Source of the DNA: a virus
Length of the DNA: 37,838 nucleotides
Strand: one strand, 5' to 3'
Virus record (IMG/VR): IMGVR_UViG_3300032311_000111
Location: 1-37,838 of that record
Shown: one piece after another, positions 5,448-21,900 of the stretch
Position numbering within the stretch: the first letter of the stretch is position 1
How the letters are laid out: each line of letters begins with the position of its first letter
Notes under the pieces: generated by a model
What the model was told of the DNA's origin: nothing
Seen by the model: the letters and a program-made list of their open reading frames with translations, nothing else
Databases searched by the model: none
Translations under genes and position numbers: made by a program

Positions 5448-5736
5448 CGGCAGCGCAGGCATTCCGTCTTTACAAACGGAGGCTTGGCCTATAAGGACAA
5501 TATAAAATATGACAGAAGACGAAATTATTAAGGCTTACCTTTCGCGCCTAGGCAAGAAGGGCGGGAGCGTCAAAGGTCCACAGAAGGTGCGACCAAAAGA
5601 ACACTATCAGAAGGCGGTAGGTATACGCTGGGCTAAATATCGGGAGCGTCAAACGGAAGCGCAGGCATCCAAGCGGTAGCGTAGCCTTTCGCGGGAGCGT
5701 TAGCCCTATAAGTGTGCTATAAACGGCAGCCTAGCG
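5448..5736 (+). repeat. Degenerate CGGNAGCG repeat cluster
   Basis: The unit CGG-N-AGCG, often followed by C/T and an AGGC or AGCC tail, starts at 5448, 5562, 5641, 5654, 5674 and 5692, with a variant CGGCAGCC at 5724. Two copies share a longer core (CGGCAGCGCAGGCATTCC at 5448, CGGAAGCGCAGGCATCC at 5654). Units lie both inside and outside the 56-aa gene. Within it the same unit is read in two frames (GGS-V and RERQ), so repetition is at DNA level, not protein level. Confidence 0.6.
5509..5679 (+). CDS. Small basic protein, 56 aa, KGG-type
   Basis: A 56-aa basic protein: MTEDEIIKAYLSRLGKKGGS, then VKGPQKVRPKEHYQKAVGIR and WAKYRERQTEAQASKR. The layout (LGKKGG..., then Lys/Arg residues, then A..RWAKYR) resembles small plasmid and phage proteins with a Gly-Gly turn and a C-terminal A-x-x-RW motif that I have seen described as KGG or stress-induced-like; this is a loose match. 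No good Shine-Dalgarno is visible (ATAAGGACAATATAAAAT). It is the last plus-strand gene and faces the leftward genes. Confidence 0.6.
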   Translation: MTEDEIIKAYLSRLGKKGGSVKGPQKVRPKEHYQKAVGIRWAKYRERQTEAQASKR

Positions 5737-6134: not shown

Positions 6135-6442
6135 GAATCATCCACCTCATCAGCGTCAAAAGCCTCAGGACAGGCATCGTGGAGCGATTGGAGTGCCTTC
6201 TGGTGGCTTTCAAAGAAGCCTGACAGCCTATTAACCTCATCAGTCAGCCCTTCCCACTGATGCTCGAACACTTCAAAAGAGCAGTTTGCGTCCATATCAT
6301 CGACTAATTGACCCAAGAGCCTGAGAACGCCGTGTAGTTGAGCGTTCTCCTTTTGAAGCAGGCTAATAAACCTATTTGCCAGCTTCAACTGCTCTCGGTC
6401 TTGGTTCAGAACCCGCCCTTCTTGGCCTTCATCATCCGCCAC
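6131..6442 (-). CDS. Coiled-coil hypothetical protein, about 103 aa
   Basis: The frame encodes an acidic helical protein with a leucine/glutamine-rich heptad segment (REQLKLANRFISLLQKENAQ) and an acidic C-terminus (FDADEVDDS). The GTG start at 6442 overlaps the upstream small gene by 37 bases; a later internal start may be the true one, since no ribosome binding site stands out. I do not recognise the family. The stop overlaps the ATG of the SFRARH protein gene. Confidence 0.6.
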   Translation of the reverse strand: MADDEGQEGRVLNQDREQLKLANRFISLLQKENAQLHGVLRLLGQLVDDMDANCSFEVFEHQWEGLTDEVNRLSGFFESHQKALQSLHDACPEAFDADEVDDS

Positions 6443-6540
6443 ACCTTGGGGCTAATGGTGCTTTTAGACTTAGGACGGCTAGTGCCAGCCCTACGGCGAG
6501 AGTTGATGTTGGCGTATAAACCAGGTTTAGCTTTGTTCAT
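6406..6540 (-). CDS. Small basic GLYANIN-type protein, copy 1 (44 aa)
   Basis: The 44-aa product reads MNKAKPGLYANINSRRRAGT, then SRPKSKSTISPKVWRMMKAK, then KGGF. It is closely similar to the 43-aa protein at 35059-35190: both share GLYANIN, (S/A)RR(R/K)AGTSR, a Ser/Thr-Lys linker, PK(V/I)WRMMKAKKGGF. The GLYANIN/H-(A/S)-(R/K)-(R/K) start is common in very small phage proteins near packaging and head genes. Here it lies downstream of the iteron region. A basic, Gly-containing peptide of this kind could bind nucleic acid; function is unknown. Confidence 0.7.
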   Translation of the reverse strand: MNKAKPGLYANINSRRRAGTSRPKSKSTISPKVWRMMKAKKGGF

Positions 6541-6621
6541 TTCGGTATTGTACCACACCCTCCACCTGATCACCAACTTCGTTGTTCAGCAGGTGTAGTG
6601 GCCGTTTTCATTTTCAAAACA

Positions 6622-6848
6622 CTTACGCAAGATTTGCTGAACCCATTTTTACCCAACTACCGCAGAAAAGATTTTGAACTGCCGCAGCAATACCGCAGAA
6701 ATACCCCTATAAGGGGTATTTCTTGCGGTAGTTGCGGTAGCGAGCAAAAAGCGAATTGTTGCGGTACCGCAGAAATAATTGTTGCGGTATGTCATTTTCT
6801 TACGTAAGTCGCATTTCTGCAAAAACCATTATCAACGACTTACGTAAG
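6622..6848. promoter_or_regulatory. Iteron and palindrome region: candidate replication origin or control region
   Basis: Between the primase-helicase gene and the next gene lie seven copies of the heptamer TACCGCA/TGCGGTA (6658, 6691, 6724, 6733, 6760, 6765, 6783) plus a TGCCGCA variant at 6680. Two of them form the perfect palindrome TGCGGTACCGCA at 6760-6771. The perfect palindrome CTTACGTAAG occurs at 6799-6808 and 6839-6848, the latter overlapping the primase stop codon, with a one-base variant CTTACGCAAG at 6622-6631. Repeated binding sites beside a replication gene are typical of origins; binding sites for a phage repressor are the alternative. Confidence 0.6.
6691..6730. other. Long near-perfect hairpin inside the iteron region
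   Basis: TACCGCAGAAATACCCCT (6691-6708) pairs with AGGGGTATTTCTTGCGGTA (6712-6730) around a 3-base loop, with one bulged base in 18 pairs. Each arm ends in one TACCGCA heptamer. It could be extruded as a cruciform or act as a bidirectional terminator, although only short T-runs flank it. Confidence 0.65.
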
Positions 6849-8765
6849 CTGAGTGATCTCCCAACCCTGCCCATTTTTGCTTATAGTTCCGTCAGCTTTT
6901 GCGGAAGCAAACAACTCCTGAGCCTTGCGTTTTGAACATCCAGTTGACTCAATAATATGGTCAATACAATCGTTATAACCATGTCCCTTCGGCCAGTCTG
7001 GAATGGCTTGTTCTATGGTCAATTCTGGCCTTCCCCTACCCTTATTCTCTGGACCATTTGACTCCTCCCATGCCATCCACTCCTCTGCGTGTCGCAGCCA
7101 CACATGAGTCGCGTACTTGCTTTCATGCAAATCAGTATCCCCTTGAGGCCATGGTATAGCAGCCCTGCCTCCGCGCTTCGGGAAGGACAGCTTAAAATGC
7201 CCTTCCTTAACCGCCTGAAGGTACACCACGGCTCTTGCCCAGTTGGTAAGCTCACTTGACCCTATCCCAGCGTATGCCAAGTCGTACAGCACTTGTGAAT
7301 GCTGCCCCTCCTTGGGTGGCTTGGGGGTGTGATGCATTACCATCCACGTCACACCAGTCGCCACACTGATCGGATTTAGGCAGTGTCGCAGGAACATCGT
7401 CATGTTCTCTTGAGCTAGGGCATCTCCACCCATGAACGATAGAAGCGGATCAATCCAGCATAAGTCAGGTCTATGGACTCCAATCAGTGCGGCTGCCATC
7501 TTTGCGAAGTCTGGTCCTGTCTTTGTTGAATCTCTGACAATAATCACGTTGGCCAGCATCATTGCGGATTGCTCATCCGACAAAGTCAGCTTGGCTTTAA
7601 GATGTCGCAGCACGCCTTGAGCCATCTCAGCAACGTCACCAAGATCATTCTCGGCTTGGATGAGCAGACTGCGCATCGGCTTCTTCGGTGTTATGCCAAG
7701 GAACGGCAAGCCAATCGCCCAGGTCATCATCGCTTGAAGACATAGAGTTGACTTACCTAGTCCAGACCCACCGACCCAAACGCAACTACCACCTTTGCAC
7801 AGCCAGCGATTACCGAGAAGACAATCGTTGTCATCTTCAGCCTTGAATCCAAGGATGTCTGGCCAAGGTGTTTGTTGCGGGAGATTCATGGCCTCCATGT
7901 GTGCCTTCCACTCGCTCCAACTACTGCGACCAGTGTTTGTGGCGAGCAAGGATTGATAGGAGTTTGCCAGCTTTCTTGGCGCACCTGGGAGTCTGGATAG
8001 CCTCGACGCATCCTTGTTCTTGGGATCTATATCGAACTGAGCCATCTTGGAATACAGATACGCAACTCGCTCCTGATGCTCCTTGATGTCCTTGGCATCT
8101 ACTTTGACCCAAGCATGGACTGACCTCGATCCAGAATGAATGACAACCGAGCAAGGCAGCTCAAGCGCGTTGATAATCGACCACTGCTCGTCCATCGTTC
8201 CACTATCAAACTCAATTAGGGCATGGCGAAAGCTTGTAACGTCATCTGACTTCCTCGAATCTCCGCAGGGATTGATGCAGACGTACGCACCAACGTACGA
8301 GTCTGGAAGCTCCACTCCAGAATGAAACTGATCCAGCCACTCCTCGCGGGTCTTTATTGTTCCCTTACCAGATGGTCTTTCTGAGTCGTCCTGATGAATA
8401 GCCCCGACAATGCAAACCCGATCCCCTTCATTGAATGCGGTGAGCAGGAATCTCCTTACATCATCGGCATGATGGCTAGGCTTCGGGCATGGTGATAGCT
8501 CGATTTTGACTGGCTCATTCGACTTAAAAGGACTGAAGCTCAACGGCTGTCTTGCCGACCTTCTGTATGCCGACTTAACCGCTGCCTCTATTTCCCTTTC
8601 TCGCAGGCCAGACGCGAGTGCTGATGGGTACAGCTTGTCAATTGCCGCCGACTCATCTAGTCCAGCATCTCGCAGTTGCTGTGCAGCTAGGAATAACTCC
8701 TCGTTGCGTTGCCCCTCATGCGCTCCGTTTGTTATGAATTGCTGTGTTCGTGTTGGTAATTTCAT
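6840..8765 (-). CDS. Primase-helicase (AEP-like primase plus RepA/DnaB-like ATPase)
   Basis: The 641-aa protein appears to join a priming domain to a hexameric-helicase-type ATPase. The N-terminal half contains ALIEFDSG (Glu185, Asp187), CSVVIHSGSRSVHAWV (205-220) and DPKNKDASRLSRLPG (247-261), a spacing typical of archaeo-eukaryotic primase relatives in phages and plasmids. The ATPase half has Walker A GGSGLGKST (332-340), an AEND motif (371-374) as in RepA-like enzymes, Walker B LCWIDP (435-440) and MVMHHTPK (476-482). The C-terminus looks like a winged helix (DHIIESTGCSKRKAQELFAS). AAAGGA precedes the ATG. It borders the iteron region and probably loads the host polymerase, since no phage polymerase is encoded. 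Confidence 0.85.
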   Translation of the reverse strand: MKLPTRTQQFITNGAHEGQRNEELFLAAQQLRDAGLDESAAIDKLYPSALASGLREREIEAAVKSAYRRSARQPLSFSPFKSNEPVKIELSPCPKPSHHADDVRRFLLTAFNEGDRVCIVGAIHQDDSERPSGKGTIKTREEWLDQFHSGVELPDSYVGAYVCINPCGDSRKSDDVTSFRHALIEFDSGTMDEQWSIINALELPCSVVIHSGSRSVHAWVKVDAKDIKEHQERVAYLYSKMAQFDIDPKNKDASRLSRLPGAPRKLANSYQSLLATNTGRSSWSEWKAHMEAMNLPQQTPWPDILGFKAEDDNDCLLGNRWLCKGGSCVWVGGSGLGKSTLCLQAMMTWAIGLPFLGITPKKPMRSLLIQAENDLGDVAEMAQGVLRHLKAKLTLSDEQSAMMLANVIIVRDSTKTGPDFAKMAAALIGVHRPDLCWIDPLLSFMGGDALAQENMTMFLRHCLNPISVATGVTWMVMHHTPKPPKEGQHSQVLYDLAYAGIGSSELTNWARAVVYLQAVKEGHFKLSFPKRGGRAAIPWPQGDTDLHESKYATHVWLRHAEEWMAWEESNGPENKGRGRPELTIEQAIPDWPKGHGYNDCIDHIIESTGCSKRKAQELFASAKADGTISKNGQGWEITQLT

Positions 8766-9110: not shown

Positions 9111-9208
9111 AATCAAAAATCAAACTGGCTACTGATTCAAGAGGGGAACAACACACTATGCATCCAGCCCCGCCGCAGGATCTCCCTGCGTACCACATCG
9201 CCAGTTAG

Positions 9209-9358
9209 TTATTTGCTTTCGTTAAATTTCCTGAGTTGTTCTTCCATTGTTGCGATTGCTTCACGCATCTGCATCTGCACCTGTTCGGAGCGATTATAAA
9301 CAGTTCTTGCGTGTTCAATGTTCTTCTCAAATTCATTTATCAATTCAGCCTTTGTCAC
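9209..9358 (-). CDS. Small coiled-coil protein, 49 aa
   Basis: A GTG at 9358 overlaps the stop of the glycosyltransferase gene (GTGA), the same coupling seen elsewhere in the block. The product (MTKAELINEFEKNIEHARTV..., then YNRSEQVQMQMREAIATMEE) is a single charged helix with heptad-like spacing of Leu, Ile and Met, likely an oligomerising coiled coil. No family is recognised. Confidence 0.6.
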   Translation of the reverse strand: MTKAELINEFEKNIEHARTVYNRSEQVQMQMREAIATMEEQLRKFNESK

Positions 9359-10476
9359 TTGTTCGCTCCATTGCTAAAGTCTAAATCAACAGCCTTCTTG
9401 CTGGCCTCAATAATATCCTCGGCCTTGATGTTCCTCAGTGCATTGCACCACATCTGCGTCTTCGGTGTCTTGTTGGTCGCATCCTTACACTTGGCCTGTG
9501 GCAACCCAGCGTGCGGACGACAAGGTGCGTGCGGGCAGGTATCGGGCTTGAACACCGATACGTTCTTAGGATAAAACGTCATTCTGTCGGCGGGCGAGTA
9601 GCTGCCCCACAACGACACACACGGAGTATCCAACCCAGCAGCCATGTGGTTGACTGAGCTATCTGGCGCGACAACAAAGTCAGCCCCGCTAATAATCGGG
9701 AACAGCGAGCGCACAGCCTTGGTGCAGTTGAACAAGTCAATCACTCTCGGATGATCCACCTTAAAGTTGTTGCTGTTATCCAGCCCGATAATAACAGCGT
9801 GATGTTTTGGGTAGGCTTCAAGCAACGCCAGCACCGCCTCCTGCCCCATCGTTGGCGGGTAGGTGCGGGTCGGACCAGAACTGCTAACATGATAAGCAAA
9901 GAACGGACTAGGCAACGGCCACTTGCCCATCGCCTTCAACTCTTCGTGGTCTGGCTCAATGAGATGCAGAACTGGCTTACAATACTTTGCCATCTTCTTC
10001 TCATCCCAAACACCCATCCACTCGTAGATCCGCTGGTAGCAATTGCCAGGACCAGTGCCTAGCTTCGTGTTGCCAACCTGTCCGCTGAACAGATCGTCAG
10101 TAGGCAGGTGCGCATCGAAAGAATCCCAAGCCTCCAGCGATGCAGGCAACGGCCACAGCCTTGCACCCAGCCCAGCGTAGAGAGGCAGGTTGCGAGCAGG
10201 CGCGTAAACCTCCACAACCCCACCCGACTCTTGCACCAAGTAGTTGACGAAGGCAGTAGCGATGATTGCGTCACCGATTGCACCAGCGCGGTAGACGGCT
10301 GTTGCACCACCAGCAGCACGACCAGGCCAATACGGCTTGATTTTATGTGGGCAAGGGATTGAATCGTCCCAGGTTGGTCCAGTTAGCTCATCTGGCAACA
10401 CATAGGTAGTGCGTGGGTAGAGCATATTGTCATCGACTTTGTGAATTGCGTTAGTGTTATTTGTCCATAGTTTCAT
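9355..10476 (-). CDS. Glycosyltransferase family 9-like (heptosyltransferase-like) protein
   Basis: The 373-aa protein has a GT-B, heptosyltransferase-like build. The N-terminal domain contains a Gly-rich loop RAGAIGDAIIATAFV (63-77), the usual GD-x-(I/L)-x-(A/T) motif. The C-terminal nucleotide-sugar site contains FVVAPDSSVNHMAAGLDTPC followed by VSLWG (D-S-S-x-x-H-x-A-x-x-x-x-x-P), typical of GT9. Bacterial GT9 enzymes add heptose to the LPS core. A Cys-rich tail (DTCPHAPCRPHAGLPQAKC...MWC) is unusual and may bind zinc. In a phage it could modify host LPS, virion proteins or DNA. It lies directly downstream of the cytosine methyltransferase with a 4-base overlap. Confidence 0.75.
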   Translation of the reverse strand: MKLWTNNTNAIHKVDDNMLYPRTTYVLPDELTGPTWDDSIPCPHKIKPYWPGRAAGGATAVYRAGAIGDAIIATAFVNYLVQESGGVVEVYAPARNLPLYAGLGARLWPLPASLEAWDSFDAHLPTDDLFSGQVGNTKLGTGPGNCYQRIYEWMGVWDEKKMAKYCKPVLHLIEPDHEELKAMGKWPLPSPFFAYHVSSSGPTRTYPPTMGQEAVLALLEAYPKHHAVIIGLDNSNNFKVDHPRVIDLFNCTKAVRSLFPIISGADFVVAPDSSVNHMAAGLDTPCVSLWGSYSPADRMTFYPKNVSVFKPDTCPHAPCRPHAGLPQAKCKDATNKTPKTQMWCNALRNIKAEDIIEASKKAVDLDFSNGANK

Positions 10477-11465
10477 TTGTTATCCTCCATTATTTTGTTG
10501 ATACATCTGATGATTTCTGACGCGACTTGCGGGACAATGGCGTTACCCAATCCTTTAAGTCGGTGTGACCTATTGGGTATCCCATTAGCCACTCGACCCA
10601 CGTTGGGTTCAGCGAGCCACGTTGCCACTCCTCTGGAGTTGTCCCTCGAATGTCTGGATGATTCCCAAACATCTTCTGCATATTCCCCTTCGGAGTTCCA
10701 GCAGCATCCTCGTTTGCTGACGGAGTCGGCCACATTCTCACTGCTGTCTGAAGAGTTGCTCCCCATCTCGTTCCGTTGGCTGATGTCCTCGTCTTGCCGT
10801 CCTCGGACACAGCCCCACTCCTTGCTCCCGTGTGCGCCCCTCTCGGACAGGCTGATGGAGTCGGCCACATCTGCGGATGCACAACTTGCTCCCGAAGATT
10901 CCCACTCCTTGACCCTCCCTCCCTGTTCTTCTGATTTGTCGAGCAATCCTCCGCTTGTCTTGGAGGCAGTGAGTCCATCGAGTTTGGAGTGGCCCACAAT
11001 CCAAACCCTGTCTCTTCTGTGTGGCGCGTCAACGGCGCAAGCTGGAACAATGATCGGTTCGACTTCGTAACCTTGACCTTCCAGATCAGCGCACACCTGG
11101 TCGAGTGCCAAGTTGACGATCCCAGCAACATTCTCACCAATGATCCAAGCGGGCTTTGCTTCCTGTATAACTCGCAACATTTCAGGCCAGAGGTAACGGT
11201 TGTCATCCTTGCCTCGTTGCTTCCCTGCGACTGAGAATGGTTGGCATGGAAATCCACCTGTGAGAAGAGTGACTCCTGCGTATAGCTCGCCTCGTACTTC
11301 GCGGATGTCTTTGTGGCACGGGACTTCTGGCCAATGCTTTTTGAGGACTGCTTGGGCGTAGGGTTCGTTGTCACAGAAGCCAACGGTTCTATATCCATTC
11401 CACTTGGCTGCCAAGGCAAATCCTCCGATCCCACTAAATAAGTCAAGGTGGGTTTTTTCATTCAT
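10473..11465 (-). CDS. DNA (cytosine-5) methyltransferase
   Basis: The 330-aa enzyme transfers a methyl group from SAM to C5 of cytosine. Visible motifs: I LDLFSGIGGFALAA (7-20), IV GGFPCQPFS with catalytic Cys74, VI ENV (111-113), VIII DAPHRRDRVWIVG (146-158), and IX/X NRSHRLKGLGNAIVPQVA (298-315). The target-recognition region (about 160-290) is Ser/Gly/Glu-rich and carries the repeated tetrapeptide VADS (200-203 and 245-248), as many relatives do. No restriction partner is visible, so the likely roles are protection from host restriction or regulation. A second frame (10490-11461) lies completely inside this gene. The start overlaps the upstream gene by 8 bases; AGAGG lies 9 nt upstream. 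Confidence 0.93.
   Translation of the reverse strand: MNEKTHLDLFSGIGGFALAAKWNGYRTVGFCDNEPYAQAVLKKHWPEVPCHKDIREVRGELYAGVTLLTGGFPCQPFSVAGKQRGKDDNRYLWPEMLRVIQEAKPAWIIGENVAGIVNLALDQVCADLEGQGYEVEPIIVPACAVDAPHRRDRVWIVGHSKLDGLTASKTSGGLLDKSEEQGGRVKEWESSGASCASADVADSISLSERGAHGSKEWGCVRGRQDEDISQRNEMGSNSSDSSENVADSVSKRGCCWNSEGEYAEDVWESSRHSRDNSRGVATWLAEPNVGRVANGIPNRSHRLKGLGNAIVPQVASEIIRCINKIMEDNK
10490..11461 (-). CDS. Overprinted 323-aa frame inside the cytosine methyltransferase gene
   Basis: A 323-codon frame without stops runs almost the length of the methyltransferase gene, on the same strand, shifted by one base. Its ATG (11461) forms an ATGA overlap with the upstream gene's stop, the operon's usual coupling, and lies 4 bases after the methyltransferase ATG. 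The predicted protein contains STRCALIWKVKVTKSNRSLF (120-139), ETGFGLWATPNS (150-161), two MWPTPSA motifs (198-204, 243-249) and SLNPTWVEWLMGYPIGHT (283-300). I recall this WPTPxA / LNPxWVEWLMG pattern from predicted proteins next to or within Dcm genes. The WPTPSA repeats are the same DNA that encodes VADS in the enzyme. Whether it is translated is unknown. Confidence 0.5.
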   Translation of the reverse strand: MKKPTLTYLVGSEDLPWQPSGMDIEPLASVTTNPTPKQSSKSIGQKSRATKTSAKYEASYTQESLFSQVDFHANHSQSQGSNEARMTTVTSGLKCCELYRKQSPLGSLVRMLLGSSTWHSTRCALIWKVKVTKSNRSLFQLAPLTRHTEETGFGLWATPNSMDSLPPRQAEDCSTNQKNREGGSRSGNLREQVVHPQMWPTPSACPRGAHTGARSGAVSEDGKTRTSANGTRWGATLQTAVRMWPTPSANEDAAGTPKGNMQKMFGNHPDIRGTTPEEWQRGSLNPTWVEWLMGYPIGHTDLKDWVTPLSRKSRQKSSDVSTK

Positions 11466-11637
11466 CCCCCGCTACCTCTTTGCACACCAAGCTCGCCGCA
11501 TCCACCATCGTTATAATCTGGATCATATCTATCGCGTGTCCGTGAGTCGCGCGATCCCTCTCAACTACAAGCTTATTGCGTGCAATTGAAAGGATTTCGC
11601 GCGCCCACTTGAGGCGATCTTTAGCCTCGACTTGCAT
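11458..11637 (-). CDS. Small hypothetical protein, 59 aa
   Basis: The ATG at 11637 overlaps the previous stop (TAATG), and the stop at 11458 overlaps both the overprinted frame's ATG (ATGA) and the methyltransferase start. The product (MQVEAKDRLKWAREILSIAR..., then NKLVVERDRATHGHAIDMIQ) is a single amphipathic helical protein. Not recognised. Its position suggests coupled translation with the methyltransferase. Confidence 0.6.
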   Translation of the reverse strand: MQVEAKDRLKWAREILSIARNKLVVERDRATHGHAIDMIQIITMVDAASLVCKEVAGDE

Positions 11638-11816
11638 TACGAACCAGACCGCATCCGAAACTTGCGTGGCTTACTCTTGCCTGCTGCGGATAACGCAATG
11701 GCAATCATCTGCTCGCGTGAGCGCGGCTTACCGCCTGCTCCACGCTCGCTGCCCTTCTTGCGGTTATCCCTAGCCAACTCACTCATATTCTTCGATACGT
11801 TTTTACCTAGTGGCAT
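11637..11816 (-). CDS. Small basic protein, 59 aa, DUF6496-like
   Basis: The product reads MPLGKNVSKNMSELARDNRK, then KGSERGAGGKPRSREQMIAI, then ALSAAGKSKPRKFRMRSGS. The core (KG...G..V/K...RxQAIAIALSxAGKSK) matches a small family I know as DUF6496, frequent in phages and bacteria and of unknown function. It is strongly basic, so nucleic-acid contact is plausible. GGAGGTCACA precedes the ATG, a good ribosome binding site. Confidence 0.72.
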   Translation of the reverse strand: MPLGKNVSKNMSELARDNRKKGSERGAGGKPRSREQMIAIALSAAGKSKPRKFRMRSGS

Positions 11817-11825
11817 TGTGACCTC

Positions 11826-12416
11826 CTATGCTGTCTCTTCACCGACCACATCATCCCATGTGGCTTCTTCTCCATTCCAAACCTGCGATTGCGTCCGCAA
11901 CCACTTAGGCTTTTCGGATTGAGTGGTGAAGCTTGATTCGCGCCAAAGCACATTATTACCTGGGACCGCCGTAATGCGTCCATTGTTAAGTGCTATGAAA
12001 TGGTGTGACTTGGTTTGGCTTGGAGACATAGAGAACCCATCTCCGTAAGGCTCGGCTGTGAATAGATAGCGACCAACTTCCCAAGTCTTTCTGTTGGCAA
12101 TCCAAACCTTGCAGGACAACCCCATCAGATAATCGTATTCAATCGTTGTGAAGTTCCAGCCAAAACAATCCCATCGTTGAGCATCGTTAATGTCCCAATC
12201 CATAATTGCAATCTCGCCATGAGCCAAGGCGTGCAATGGCAAGCCTCGGTACAGCGCGCCACACTTGAGCATAATTGTGCAACCCCAGGCTCGCCCAGGT
12301 ACTGCGGTTAAGCCGAACCAAACAGCGTCTTCCAGACCTTGCTTCTGCCCATCAGACACAAACTCCATGTCGCACTTGACGTACAAGTGGCGGGGAAGAT
12401 TCGCAACGTGGGTCAT
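11826..12416 (-). CDS. Hypothetical protein, 196 aa
   Basis: Not recognised. The ATG overlaps the stop of the 27-aa membrane peptide gene (ATGA). The product is soluble and unusually rich in Trp (about ten), with a beta-rich look: LYVKCDMEFVSDGQKQGLED, a Trp/Gly stretch AVPGRAWGCTIMLKCGALYR and a later AVPGNNVLWRESSF that repeats the AVPG turn. A His-rich segment (PLHALAHGE, KSHHFIALN) is present but no catalytic motif is clear. Confidence 0.7.
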   Translation of the reverse strand: MTHVANLPRHLYVKCDMEFVSDGQKQGLEDAVWFGLTAVPGRAWGCTIMLKCGALYRGLPLHALAHGEIAIMDWDINDAQRWDCFGWNFTTIEYDYLMGLSCKVWIANRKTWEVGRYLFTAEPYGDGFSMSPSQTKSHHFIALNNGRITAVPGNNVLWRESSFTTQSEKPKWLRTQSQVWNGEEATWDDVVGEETA

Positions 12417-12496
12417 TTACTTTTCCAAAGCAATGTCATCATGCCAAAGCATATTGCAATGACTCCAAGCAATCTGATTTGATCGTCAATCGTCAT
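12413..12496 (-). CDS. 27-aa membrane micropeptide
   Basis: The ATG at 12496 overlaps the oxygenase stop (ATGA) and the stop overlaps the next ATG (ATGA). The product (MTIDDQIRLLGVIAICFGMM then TLLWKSK) is one hydrophobic helix with a short polar N-terminus and a basic C-terminal end. Coupling on both sides is the main support. Function unknown. Confidence 0.6.
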   Translation of the reverse strand: MTIDDQIRLLGVIAICFGMMTLLWKSK

Positions 12497-13065
12497 CGCC
12501 AGCTAGGTCCAGTCAGCCAAGCCACCAACACCCAGCGAGTACCCCAGATTGGAGCACGCGCCCTGTGTTCAATGTAGGATGGGAACCAGCAACCTGCCCC
12601 CTGCTCGCGGATAAACCTTGCGTTGTCTATATCTGCCTTGACTTGCAATCCTCCACCAAGGTATTCGTGTGGAGCAGATAAGTTGACTACTGCGGTCAGT
12701 TTGCGCACTGGAGCTTCGGCTGTGTAGGTATCAAAGTGCCAGCTAAACTTCTGCAATGGTCGATACCGAAGGATCTGCAACTGCTGCATACCAGTAACAT
12801 CAAATCTCCAATGCTCTGCGTTGATTGAGTCGGTAATCTCCCGCATAATGTTGTATATCCAATTGTGATGCTGGCTGAATGGTATCCAACACGACGAGCA
12901 TGTGCGATTACGCGATACTTTGTTTGAACCATCCTTGGCCAGCACTGGAGCACGCTTCATGCCAATGATCTCTGCGTCTTGGCGCAGCATCATGCACTGG
13001 CTTGGGGTCAGCACATAGCGATCTACTGATGCGGTTAATACTTTTTGTTTGAATGTTTCGATCAT
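12493..13065 (-). CDS. 2-oxoglutarate/Fe(II)-dependent oxygenase (prolyl-hydroxylase type)
   Basis: The 190-aa protein has the facial-triad motifs of the 2OG-Fe(II) oxygenase superfamily: WHFDTYT with His110-x-Asp112, a distal His167 in YIEHRARAPIWGTRW and the 2OG-binding Arg177 exactly ten residues later. The strand between them (KLTAVVNLSAPHEYLGGGLQ) matches the prolyl-4-hydroxylase/PKHD branch. Such enzymes hydroxylate protein residues or, in other branches, nucleobases; phage PKHD-type proteins usually have unknown substrates. It lies 1 kb upstream of the cytosine methyltransferase block and between the two glycosyltransferases. AAAGGAGC precedes the ATG. Confidence 0.85.
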   Translation of the reverse strand: MIETFKQKVLTASVDRYVLTPSQCMMLRQDAEIIGMKRAPVLAKDGSNKVSRNRTCSSCWIPFSQHHNWIYNIMREITDSINAEHWRFDVTGMQQLQILRYRPLQKFSWHFDTYTAEAPVRKLTAVVNLSAPHEYLGGGLQVKADIDNARFIREQGAGCWFPSYIEHRARAPIWGTRWVLVAWLTGPSWR

Positions 13066-17023: not shown

Positions 17024-17409
17024 AGATTCTGAAATACACGCCAGCTTTGGCCTGTCGATGGACAAAGCAAAGTTGTGACGCTCTTACAGCGTGCAATTGG
17101 TAACAGCCAGAAAAGATCGTCGTGCATACCCCAACAAGCGACATAATCAACACCAGTAATTACCTTTTTTGGAGCATTGTATCCAGACCCGCAGGAGGTG
17201 GTGAAACGATACCTACTCCTCCCAGGCTCGACGTTCTGTGCCGCCTTGACCTGAATGCGGTGGAACTTACCATGCTTTTCAGCTACCAAATCGTAGCCAG
17301 AAAAATCCTCCAATGGAGCAAGCACATTGTAGCCACACCGCAAAAGTGAGCTTACAACCCTTGAAACTCCTACCGCACCGATCTGTCTTGGTGATAATTT
17401 AATTTTCAT
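17020..17409 (-). CDS. Small PD-(D/E)XK nuclease-like protein
   Basis: The 129-aa protein contains YNVLAPLEDFSGYDLVAE with Asp40 and FHRIQVKAAQNV with Gln53-Val-Lys55, the (D...QxK) version of the PD-(D/E)XK signature found in group I intron-associated endonucleases (PDDEXK_5 type) and in some phage proteins. The first helix (RQIGAVGVSRVVSSLLRCG) and the later SRYRFTTSCGS match that fold. It is the first gene of the leftward replication block and faces the divergent secreted-protein gene across 37 bases. It may be a nicking enzyme, a resolvase or a degenerate homing nuclease. Confidence 0.68.
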   Translation of the reverse strand: MKIKLSPRQIGAVGVSRVVSSLLRCGYNVLAPLEDFSGYDLVAEKHGKFHRIQVKAAQNVEPGRSRYRFTTSCGSGYNAPKKVITGVDYVACWGMHDDLFWLLPIARCKSVTTLLCPSTGQSWRVFQNL

Positions 17410-18952: not shown

Positions 18953-21900
18953 TTATAACTCCTGTCCAAACTCTATACTTCTTTGGTTCTTTCTGATGAA
19001 GTTTTCTCTCGCTGTCTTGCTTGCTTTGTTGTAAGCATTTGACAGCGTTTTGACTTGTTCTTCTGGAATAAGCCTTCTAAATCTTTTATCACCTAAAAGT
19101 TGTTCCGCAACTTGCCTGTTTGCCTTGCCAACCGCGCTTGCGTATTCCTCATAAAGCGTTGGGTCAAGTCTAAATCTTGCCCTCTGACCAGTCCTTCTTT
19201 TAAAGACCTGCAAATCTCGATCTGGAACTTGTGGTATGCCGTCAGTTTTGCCAGTCTTTTTATACAAATCATAGACAGCAAGAGTCACATCATCATAGGT
19301 GACTTTTCTTGGTCGGGTTGGATCTACAAAATTATAGATAAATGGATCAACGCCTTCTGGTGTTTGAGGCACTGGTTCGCCCCATACGTTTATTTTTGAA
19401 GGCAAATCTTCAGCACTTCCAGGCCACTTTCTCTTGACCACTTCCTTGAATATGTTGTAGGACTTGGTTGCAAAATCGTTACCTTCTATGTCCTTGACTT
19501 GAATCTTGTCTGGCATATTTTCGCTTAAATATCTTGAGACCGCAGTTAGCTGATTAGGCAATACTACTGCCGACAGCGCGCTGTAGTAATTTGCAAGCCA
19601 CCCATCCACATCCTTTGCTTCACCCCTAGATACAGCCCCAAGAAGACTATTCATGTTGCGTGCGAAACTTTGTTGAAACGCAAATTTTAGTGTTTGTGGA
19701 AGGATTGCGCCCCACGCTTCACCCAATGATCCTGTCCCGCCTTCAGTTGCTTGGTTGGCTGCGTGGCGCGTTGACATTATTGCTCCAACGACTCCAAGCT
19801 TTTCAAGCGACCTTAAAGAATCTCCAGGCTCCATCTCTTGCCTAGATCCAGTTTGCAAAAACCTTTCTGTGCCATCAATGTTTATCATTCTGGATGGGGC
19901 GGCCTGTAATTGTATGTCCCGCGCCTTGTCTGATTTTGGCATTTCGTCTGTTATTACGCCAGCCCTAGACAATATGTCTGCCACATTGCCTATTGCGTAG
20001 CCAATAATAGATTTTGCGAAGTGTAGTTTTGCTTCCCTAAAGTTTCCTTGTCCTTGTTCCGCAAGCCCACGAATAAAAGAGTACTCTGGAATTGAGTATT
20101 GCAGAATTTCGTCTACTATATTAGTTGGTGTTTTTTGGTATGGAAGAACAGCAGTTGTGGCTATTCTAGCTGCCCCTGCCATTGGCTTTCCTATGATTGG
20201 TGTTTTGCCTAAATACTTTGGGGCTAGTTCTGTTAAATACTTTACGCCCCTAGACAGCTTTGTGTCTTGCTGATATACGGCTTCAAGAGTCTCGTACGCA
20301 ACCCTATCAACCTCCTCTTGTGTTGGGTATCTTACTGCCCTTTGCAGGGCCTTGCCCTTCAGTCCCTCCAATTGCCTAGCCTCGGTAAGTAGCCTAGCTT
20401 GAGCCATTCTTAGTGGAGGCGCATCGCCAAGTTGCAAGAGTCTAAAATTAACTTCAGGTGAAATCCCAAGCGTACCTTCCGCAAGAAGTCTTACCCGATC
20501 CATTGCCTTTGCAGCAGTTCCCGCTATGCCCTCGGCAATAGGCTCGGCCAATCCCTCGCCAGTAAAGGCTTGTTTTAAAGCCCTCATAGGTTTAAATCCT
20601 TGTATGTTTTCTCCAGCTAAAAGCCGCTCTGGAGATACGCCCTTTACTAACCCCACTAATCCTTCCCTTAACCCCCTACCACCAGCCTTGCCAACCTCAA
20701 TAAACCTTTCCAGCGTGCCTCGCCCCAATGGGGACATAAACTGCTTTTGTTCTGCCAGATAATTTCCCGCAGCACCCTTTGTTCCAGGTATTCTTGTAGC
20801 AACTGGCCTTACTATGATTCTTTCAATTTGGTCTAACAGCGATGCCACCTGCCTAGTCGCAGCCCGAATTGGCATATTGACTGTATTGCCCATTATGTTT
20901 GCCGCTTGGGATAGCGTTGTTAAAAGATTGCCCCTAATATGATCTGAAAGTTGTACTCCCAATTCTTTTGGTAGTAATTTTCCTTCAAATTCAGCTAGCT
21001 CTCCGCTTGCCAGCAAAGCCTTGTCTTCTAGTTCTTGGGCAAGCTTATCTGCTTTCTTGGAAAAATCAGTTCTTGCTTTATTCCAAGCCTCGCGCATTGC
21101 GTCTTCTGCGGCTTGTTTTTTTGTAAATAATTCTATTGCCCTCTGTCTTAACGCTGGAGTTATTTTTGCTCCACTCTCAATAAGATCCTTTTCTTTTTGT
21201 GTGGCAAATTGTCTCGTAGCCTTTAGCAGGGTTTTATTTAATATATACGCATAACCTTCTGGAGATGTATTGATAAGTTTTCCTAGATTCATCATTTGGG
21301 CTGCATTGGTCAGCTTGCCATAGATGGTGTCAAAAAAAGAATCTGCTGCCTGAACATCGCCAGCCAATCTAGCGTCTTCCATCGAAACAAATTTTGCAGT
21401 TTCTCCAGTTAAGTCATCATTTGCTGCAATTGCTGCTCTTGCCTCTGGAGTCAATTGCCTTAATTCTTTTGCCAGCGTCTTTGGGGAAAATGTATTCAAT
21501 AAAGCCCTATTTCTTTTGTCGGCAAATTTGGCGGCCAATTCGTCTGACGTTCTTGGATCTGCTATCATTCGTTCTGCCGTTGCTCGCACTTTTTGTCCTG
21601 GACCTGCTCTTTGTTTCAGTTCTTGAATTAGCTTCTCCCTGTCTATGGAAGGAGTTTTTGAGCCAGCACCAACTGGCTTTCTTATTACTCCCTGCACAAC
21701 CATTGTTTCTGTGCCTTCCTTACTATGCGGAAGCGTAATTCCCTCTATCCCTTGTTTTTTTAGGGAATCAAAAAATGGTTTGTCTAGGAATCTTGACTGC
21801 GGTGGTATTTTATTAAAAATTGCATTCTGAACAATGTTGCCAAGCCTTTTTTCATCTTTTGCGTATAAATCATCTCTTACTTTTTTGAGTGTTTCATAAA

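Follow-up and report, generated by a model that had tools for sequence, protein, structure and literature searches.

The primase-helicase gene of the phage genome studied here is followed by a 300-bp gap in which positions 6622-6848 are crowded with short repeats and palindromes. Does the phage begin to copy its DNA there, and if so, which protein reads the repeats? We analyzed the whole 37,838-nt record (the window). Because a 123-bp direct terminal repeat stands at its ends, we take this 37.8-kb record to be a complete, circularly closed genome. The genes recognized on it encode terminase, major head and tail proteins, a RusA-type resolvase, an exonuclease and the primase-helicase, and a search of its larger open reading frames recognized no DNA polymerase. 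The initial annotation had called 6622-6848 the only sizeable non-coding stretch in the leftward replication block, a reasonable description since the other gaps of the block, 9117-9354 and 11466-11825, contain plausible small open reading frames. Accessory genes within the block (9355-10476 and 11826-13065, minus strand) encode a glycosyltransferase family 9 protein, a 2OG-Fe(II) oxygenase and a match to a phrog annotated as ferredoxin. On the same strand, two long open reading frames in different frames, 10473-11465 and 10490-11461, share about 970 bases, and both match DNA methyltransferase phrogs (phrog_363, 2.4e-77, and phrog_1008, 1.1e-29); they probably form a dual-coding locus.

Seven exact copies of TACCGCA/TGCGGTA and one variant are packed into 132 bp of the gap, the exact copies all within 6658-6789 (Table 1). 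Outside the array, a single further copy occurs in 37,838 bases, at 17371, so the heptamer is not found at similar density elsewhere in the genome; a similar density elsewhere is what the initial annotation had named as evidence against its reading. The expectation for the whole window is 2.9 copies, and 0 of 100 shuffled sequences reached 8. No other 7-mer of the window is as densely clustered in 227 bp; some 7-mer with 7-8 copies appeared in 4 of 100 shuffles, a count that includes self-overlapping words, whereas TACCGCA does not overlap itself. Two heptamers overlap in the perfect palindrome TGCGGTACCGCA, and two others close the arms of the central hairpin. The 66-nt stretch with this hairpin folds as DNA with z = -7.4 relative to shuffles. 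All of these elements had been described in the initial annotation and were found in their places. A long AT-rich block is not evident in the array of the window.

The three copies of a second motif, CTTNCGNAAG, that had been reported for the stretch are also present (CTTACGCAAG or CTTACGTAAG, starting at 6622, 6799 and 6839), and the genome has one other, at 20476. The copy at 6839-6848 does overlap the stop codon of the primase-helicase gene (6840-6842), as claimed, but as a perfect palindrome it is peculiar to this genome. In most relatives the sequence there is CTTTCGTAAG, and it is the half-site pair CGTAAGTCG / CGACTTACG that is conserved at the stop codon. In our survey of relatives, described below, the CTTNCGNAAG sites and this inverted pair are kept in the group that shares the TACCGCA repeat (type A) and were not noticed in the other types (B-E). 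In scans of the region, no sigma-70-type promoter scored, no intrinsic terminator was found and an RNA family search gave nothing near a gathering score. Throughout the type-A group, a -10-like box (TACAAT/TATACT) stands only a few bases ahead of the start codon of the small basic gene that follows the array, suggesting that the transcript of this gene is leaderless.

Table 1. Coordinates of the repeats, palindromes and coding features in and around 6622-6848
Feature	Position	Strand	Evidence
Next gene, 44-aa basic protein	6406..6540	-	phrog_25774 2.5e-15
-10-like box TACAAT upstream of 44-aa basic gene	6547-6552	-	sequence
Third CTTNCGNAAG site, CTTACGCAAG	6622..6631	.	sequence, relatives
Heptamer TACCGCA	6658..6664	+	sequence count
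Variant heptamer TGCCGCA	6680..6686	+	sequence
Central hairpin, 18 pairs, one bulge	6691..6730	.	energy folding
Heptamer TACCGCA, base of one hairpin arm	6691..6697	+	sequence count, folding
Heptamer TACCGCA, base of opposite hairpin arm	6724..6730	-	sequence count, folding
Heptamer TACCGCA	6733..6739	-	sequence count
Perfect 12-bp palindrome TGCGGTACCGCA, two overlapping heptamers (6760-6766 -, 6765-6771 +)	6760..6771	.	sequence
Heptamer TACCGCA	6783..6789	-	sequence count
13-bp inverted repeat with two CTTACGTAAG sites, overlapping stop codon	6799..6848	.	sequence; conserved core CGTAAGTCG/CGACTTACG
641-aa primase-helicase, proposed initiator	6840..8765	-	AAA_25 9.5e-24, PriCT_1 (Pfam); phrog_2597 DNA primase
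C-terminal winged-helix domain, about residues 583-641, proposed heptamer reader	6843..7019	-	H-H-H-E-E model, winged-helix matches, co-exchange with repeats
RepA-like helicase domain, residues 308-483	7317..7844	-	Pfam AAA_25; weak match to RSF1010 RepA 1olo/1g8y
AEP primase domain, residues 98-294	7884..8474	-	model vs 6zp9 Z 14.3, RSF1010 RepB' 3h20/3h25 Z 14.1

A sequence search of solved structures with the 641-aa protein gave no match, so we compared folds instead, using a model built from 26 sequences that is confident over residues 98-294. This primase domain (residues ~98-294) matches the AEP primases of phage S-2L (6zp9) and RSF1010 RepB', the latter over residues 97-294. Residues 330-510, which are modeled with low confidence, match RSF1010 RepA weakly (1olo, Z 6.8), and Pfam assigns the protein AAA_25 and no D5/SF3 family. 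Modeled alone, the tail is a winged helix of three helices and two strands that resembles, at Z 5-6, a large number of winged helices unrelated to it. Among the matches listed for the tail fold the origin-binding domain of P4 is absent, which carries no weight either way. According to these models, a single chain would join a primase like RSF1010 RepB', a helicase like RepA and, at the C terminus, a winged helix, that is, the activities of RSF1010 in one protein.

Relatives of the protein, 78-99% identical and ranging from short fragments to full length, are encoded on 41 viral contigs. Wherever these contigs extend far enough, the TACCGCA array follows the stop codon. The search for the same heptamer array in relatives that the initial annotation had proposed thus succeeded: array and spacing are kept in 24 distinct genomes (window included), with the spacing 18, 5, 27, 9, 33, 33 in 13 of them and a near-identical one in the rest. 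The repeats are also oriented: 100 of the 121 before the hairpin and all 60 on its other side face it. Searching with a pattern of the hairpin core matched contigs of this type-A group; a search of cultured-phage DNA with the array gave no match, and genome contigs searched for the primase yielded no relative.

Proteins about 43% identical to that of the window (L083-L085, then many more) are followed by another array at this position. We sorted 119 distinct related proteins by their last 60-80 residues and obtained six types: A (25, window included), B (42), C1 (6), C2 (2), D (37) and E (7). Type A goes with TACCGCA, B with TACTGCAC, C1 with CTTGAGGG, C2 with CTTGGGGG, D with CTATCACC/CTATTGAT and E with CTTGAAGG. 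When each array was scored for the six repeats, its repeat matched its own tail type in all 113 proteins with enough downstream sequence, a count of consistency rather than a blind test, as each consensus was chosen after the types had been seen. Similar tails tend to go with similar repeats (permutation p = 0.047, for six types only); the groups with similar repeats are C1/C2/E (CTTGAGGG, CTTGGGGG, CTTGAAGG) and A/B (TACCGCA, TACTGCA). Energy folding found a strong stem-loop within the array in six of six types, its arms carrying the repeat units of that type in completely different sequences.

Three natural swaps illustrate how tail and array change together. In the pairs L114/L207, L221/L229 and L167/L183, the protein cores are 98.8-99.2% identical, the tails 22-37% identical, and the repeats differ. 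Between types, the DNA is about 90% identical up to some 260 nt before the stop codon, where identity sinks to background, and it stays low through tail and array; in L114/L207 it drops from about 90% to 35-47% over this segment and is back to 95% at +156, in the next gene. On a tree of the cores, in which many branches are weakly supported, the types require at least 12 changes, compared with a minimum of 5. Tail and array are exchanged as one cassette. Because cores that are 99% identical can differ in both tail and repeats, the tail is most likely what reads and binds the repeats. Our literature search, in a collection with few subscription journals, found no report of a tail-plus-origin exchange like that of these phages.

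More distant proteins, 28-30% identical, occur in five cultured phages: Faecalibacterium Aster and Lugh, Enterococcus EFC-1, Streptococcus Javan249 and Flavonifractor Castelnaud. A strong hairpin follows the primase-helicase gene in all five. The next annotated gene lies 230-410 bp downstream in four; that of Castelnaud overlaps. In Aster, Lugh, EFC-1 and Javan249 the repeats are enriched over shuffles; they are not clearly so in Castelnaud, where 34 of 200 shuffles scored as high. Several of these post-gene gaps contain TATATATAAT-like elements. In Aster, Lugh and Castelnaud (L230, L231 and L234), a TATATATAA-like element, which could be a melting region, sits between repeats and hairpin.

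The stretch has the makings of an iteron origin: clustered short repeats in non-coding DNA beside the gene of a proposed initiator. Because the repeats and the DNA-recognition tail of the protein are always exchanged together in relatives, DNA copying in this phage very probably begins here. We put the probability at roughly 0.84 that 6622-6848 is an origin whose heptamers are iterons read by the winged-helix tail of the 641-aa protein. The iteron-origin interpretation in the initial annotation thus gains strong support, at the level of sequence comparison, from the conserved array and spacing, the agreement of tail and repeat types, the cassette exchange and the RSF1010-like domains. The cumulative GC skew that had been suggested as a check does not add to it: its maximum, at 5702, follows gene direction, which confounds the test. 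Skew at fourfold sites is mixed and shows no clean origin signature, with a local sign opposite to that of a simple bidirectional origin, making the skew test uninformative or mildly unfavorable.

In the mechanism we propose, several 641-aa molecules would dock by their winged-helix tails on the heptamers flanking the central hairpin. The RepA-like helicase domain would then assemble and open the center of the array, where the long inverted repeat could form a hairpin on each single strand and the RepB'-like primase domain would lay the first primer. Since no phage polymerase was found, we propose that the host DNA polymerase extends it. From tail-DNA binding and melting to the priming site, the direction of replication and origin firing, these are steps that we infer.

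The array, its conservation and the co-exchange of tail and repeats are direct observations, and the primase fold is shown by a model. What co-exchange points to is recognition and not the function of an origin, since covariation would also be expected of an operator that this tail reads. The heptamers might then be operators through which the tail or another phage regulator controls the downstream gene or the primase operon, with replication starting elsewhere. Covariation with the tail would fit any binding-dependent function, but what covaries here is a primase-helicase and no dedicated repressor, and comparable arrays beside comparable enzymes are origins. There is a conserved promoter-like box ahead of the next small gene, and the arrays of types B-E extend nearly to the next start codon; in the window, however, more than 100 bp separate the heptamers from this box, the only one of its kind, in a region where no sigma-70-type promoter scored. 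The CTTNCGNAAG palindromes resemble dimer sites, yet operators have no need of a long central hairpin that survives complete replacement of its sequence. Given position, hairpin and enzyme domains, an origin is much more likely, and we consider a purely regulatory role improbable.

Origin and control functions often share sites, so the stretch might serve as both origin and autoregulatory operator. A second protein would then bind the CTTNCGNAAG sites and adjust how the origin fires. The conserved palindromic pair over the end of the primase gene and the third site between the array and the next promoter-like box are placed as such a dual role would have them, although no candidate for the second protein was identified and the sites are seen only in the type-A group. 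We regard this dual role, which extends the origin reading rather than excluding it, as possible and on the unlikely side. Far less probable is a packaging site, a recombination site or a mere terminator that ends transcription of the primase operon. Such elements would suit an inverted repeat in non-coding DNA behind a gene, with terminase genes about 3 kb away, but they do not account for repeats that covary with the tail of a primase-helicase, and a terminator, of which the region shows no intrinsic example, does not need seven spaced heptamers.

Taken as an origin with its initiator, the locus belongs to a kind already known. The Rep protein of SaPIs reads, through its C-terminal domain, iterons just downstream of its own gene (PMC7581432). 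The position of the iterons is the same here, and tail recognition in the phage is suggested by covariation. SaPI and SCC helicases belong to a different group (Cch2 of SCCmec is discussed with the D5 family) from the RepA-like AAA_25 helicase of the phage, which, unlike SaPI Rep and Cch2, is joined to a RepB'-like primase; the phage array also has a hairpin with repeat arms inside it. RSF1010 (IncQ) offers parallels in its RepB'-type primase fold, in its iterons with hairpin initiation sites that RepB' recognizes (PMC4434180, PMC4234260) and, by the weak match, in its RepA-type helicase. It uses three proteins, RepA, RepB' and RepC, and separate ssiA and ssiB sites, whereas the phage has one 641-aa reading frame, 7-bp repeats and one central hairpin. 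Like the phage protein, P4 alpha is a single primase-helicase with a winged helix, and its winged-helix domain binds origin repeats; its primase is of the bacterial Toprim type (PMC4234260) and that of the phage AEP-like, so the enzymes differ in type. ORF904 of pRN1 (and Bordetella phage BIP-1) would, by our model, share with the phage protein the combination of an AEP primase with a helicase and a winged helix at the C-terminal end of a single chain. Replication of pRN1 needs a stem-loop downstream of the replication gene (PMC4234260), but its helicase is SF3 and it has no iterons. Streptococcus thermophilus phage Sfi21 is similar by description, with a short non-coding element with origin features in its replication module (PMC6356513). 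Against SaPI Rep, P4 alpha, pRN1 and RSF1010, the phage would represent a fused-enzyme variant with an exchangeable tail-plus-origin cassette.

What began as a guess from sequence alone has become a testable initiator-origin pair. The six naturally matched sets of tail and repeat, several on an almost identical enzyme core, let the origin specificity of a primase-helicase be mapped directly and could yield mutually independent replication systems for laboratory plasmids. As a speculative picture, held with low confidence, a large group of uncultured phages may carry the recognition tail of an initiator of the fused RepB'-RepA type together with the matching origin as one cassette, repeatedly traded between otherwise near-identical phages; such exchange may persist because phages that live in one host compete for the origin repeats of the others or are blocked by them. 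The findings also suggest that, for many uncultured phages, inspecting the sequence just after the primase-helicase gene can reveal the origin.
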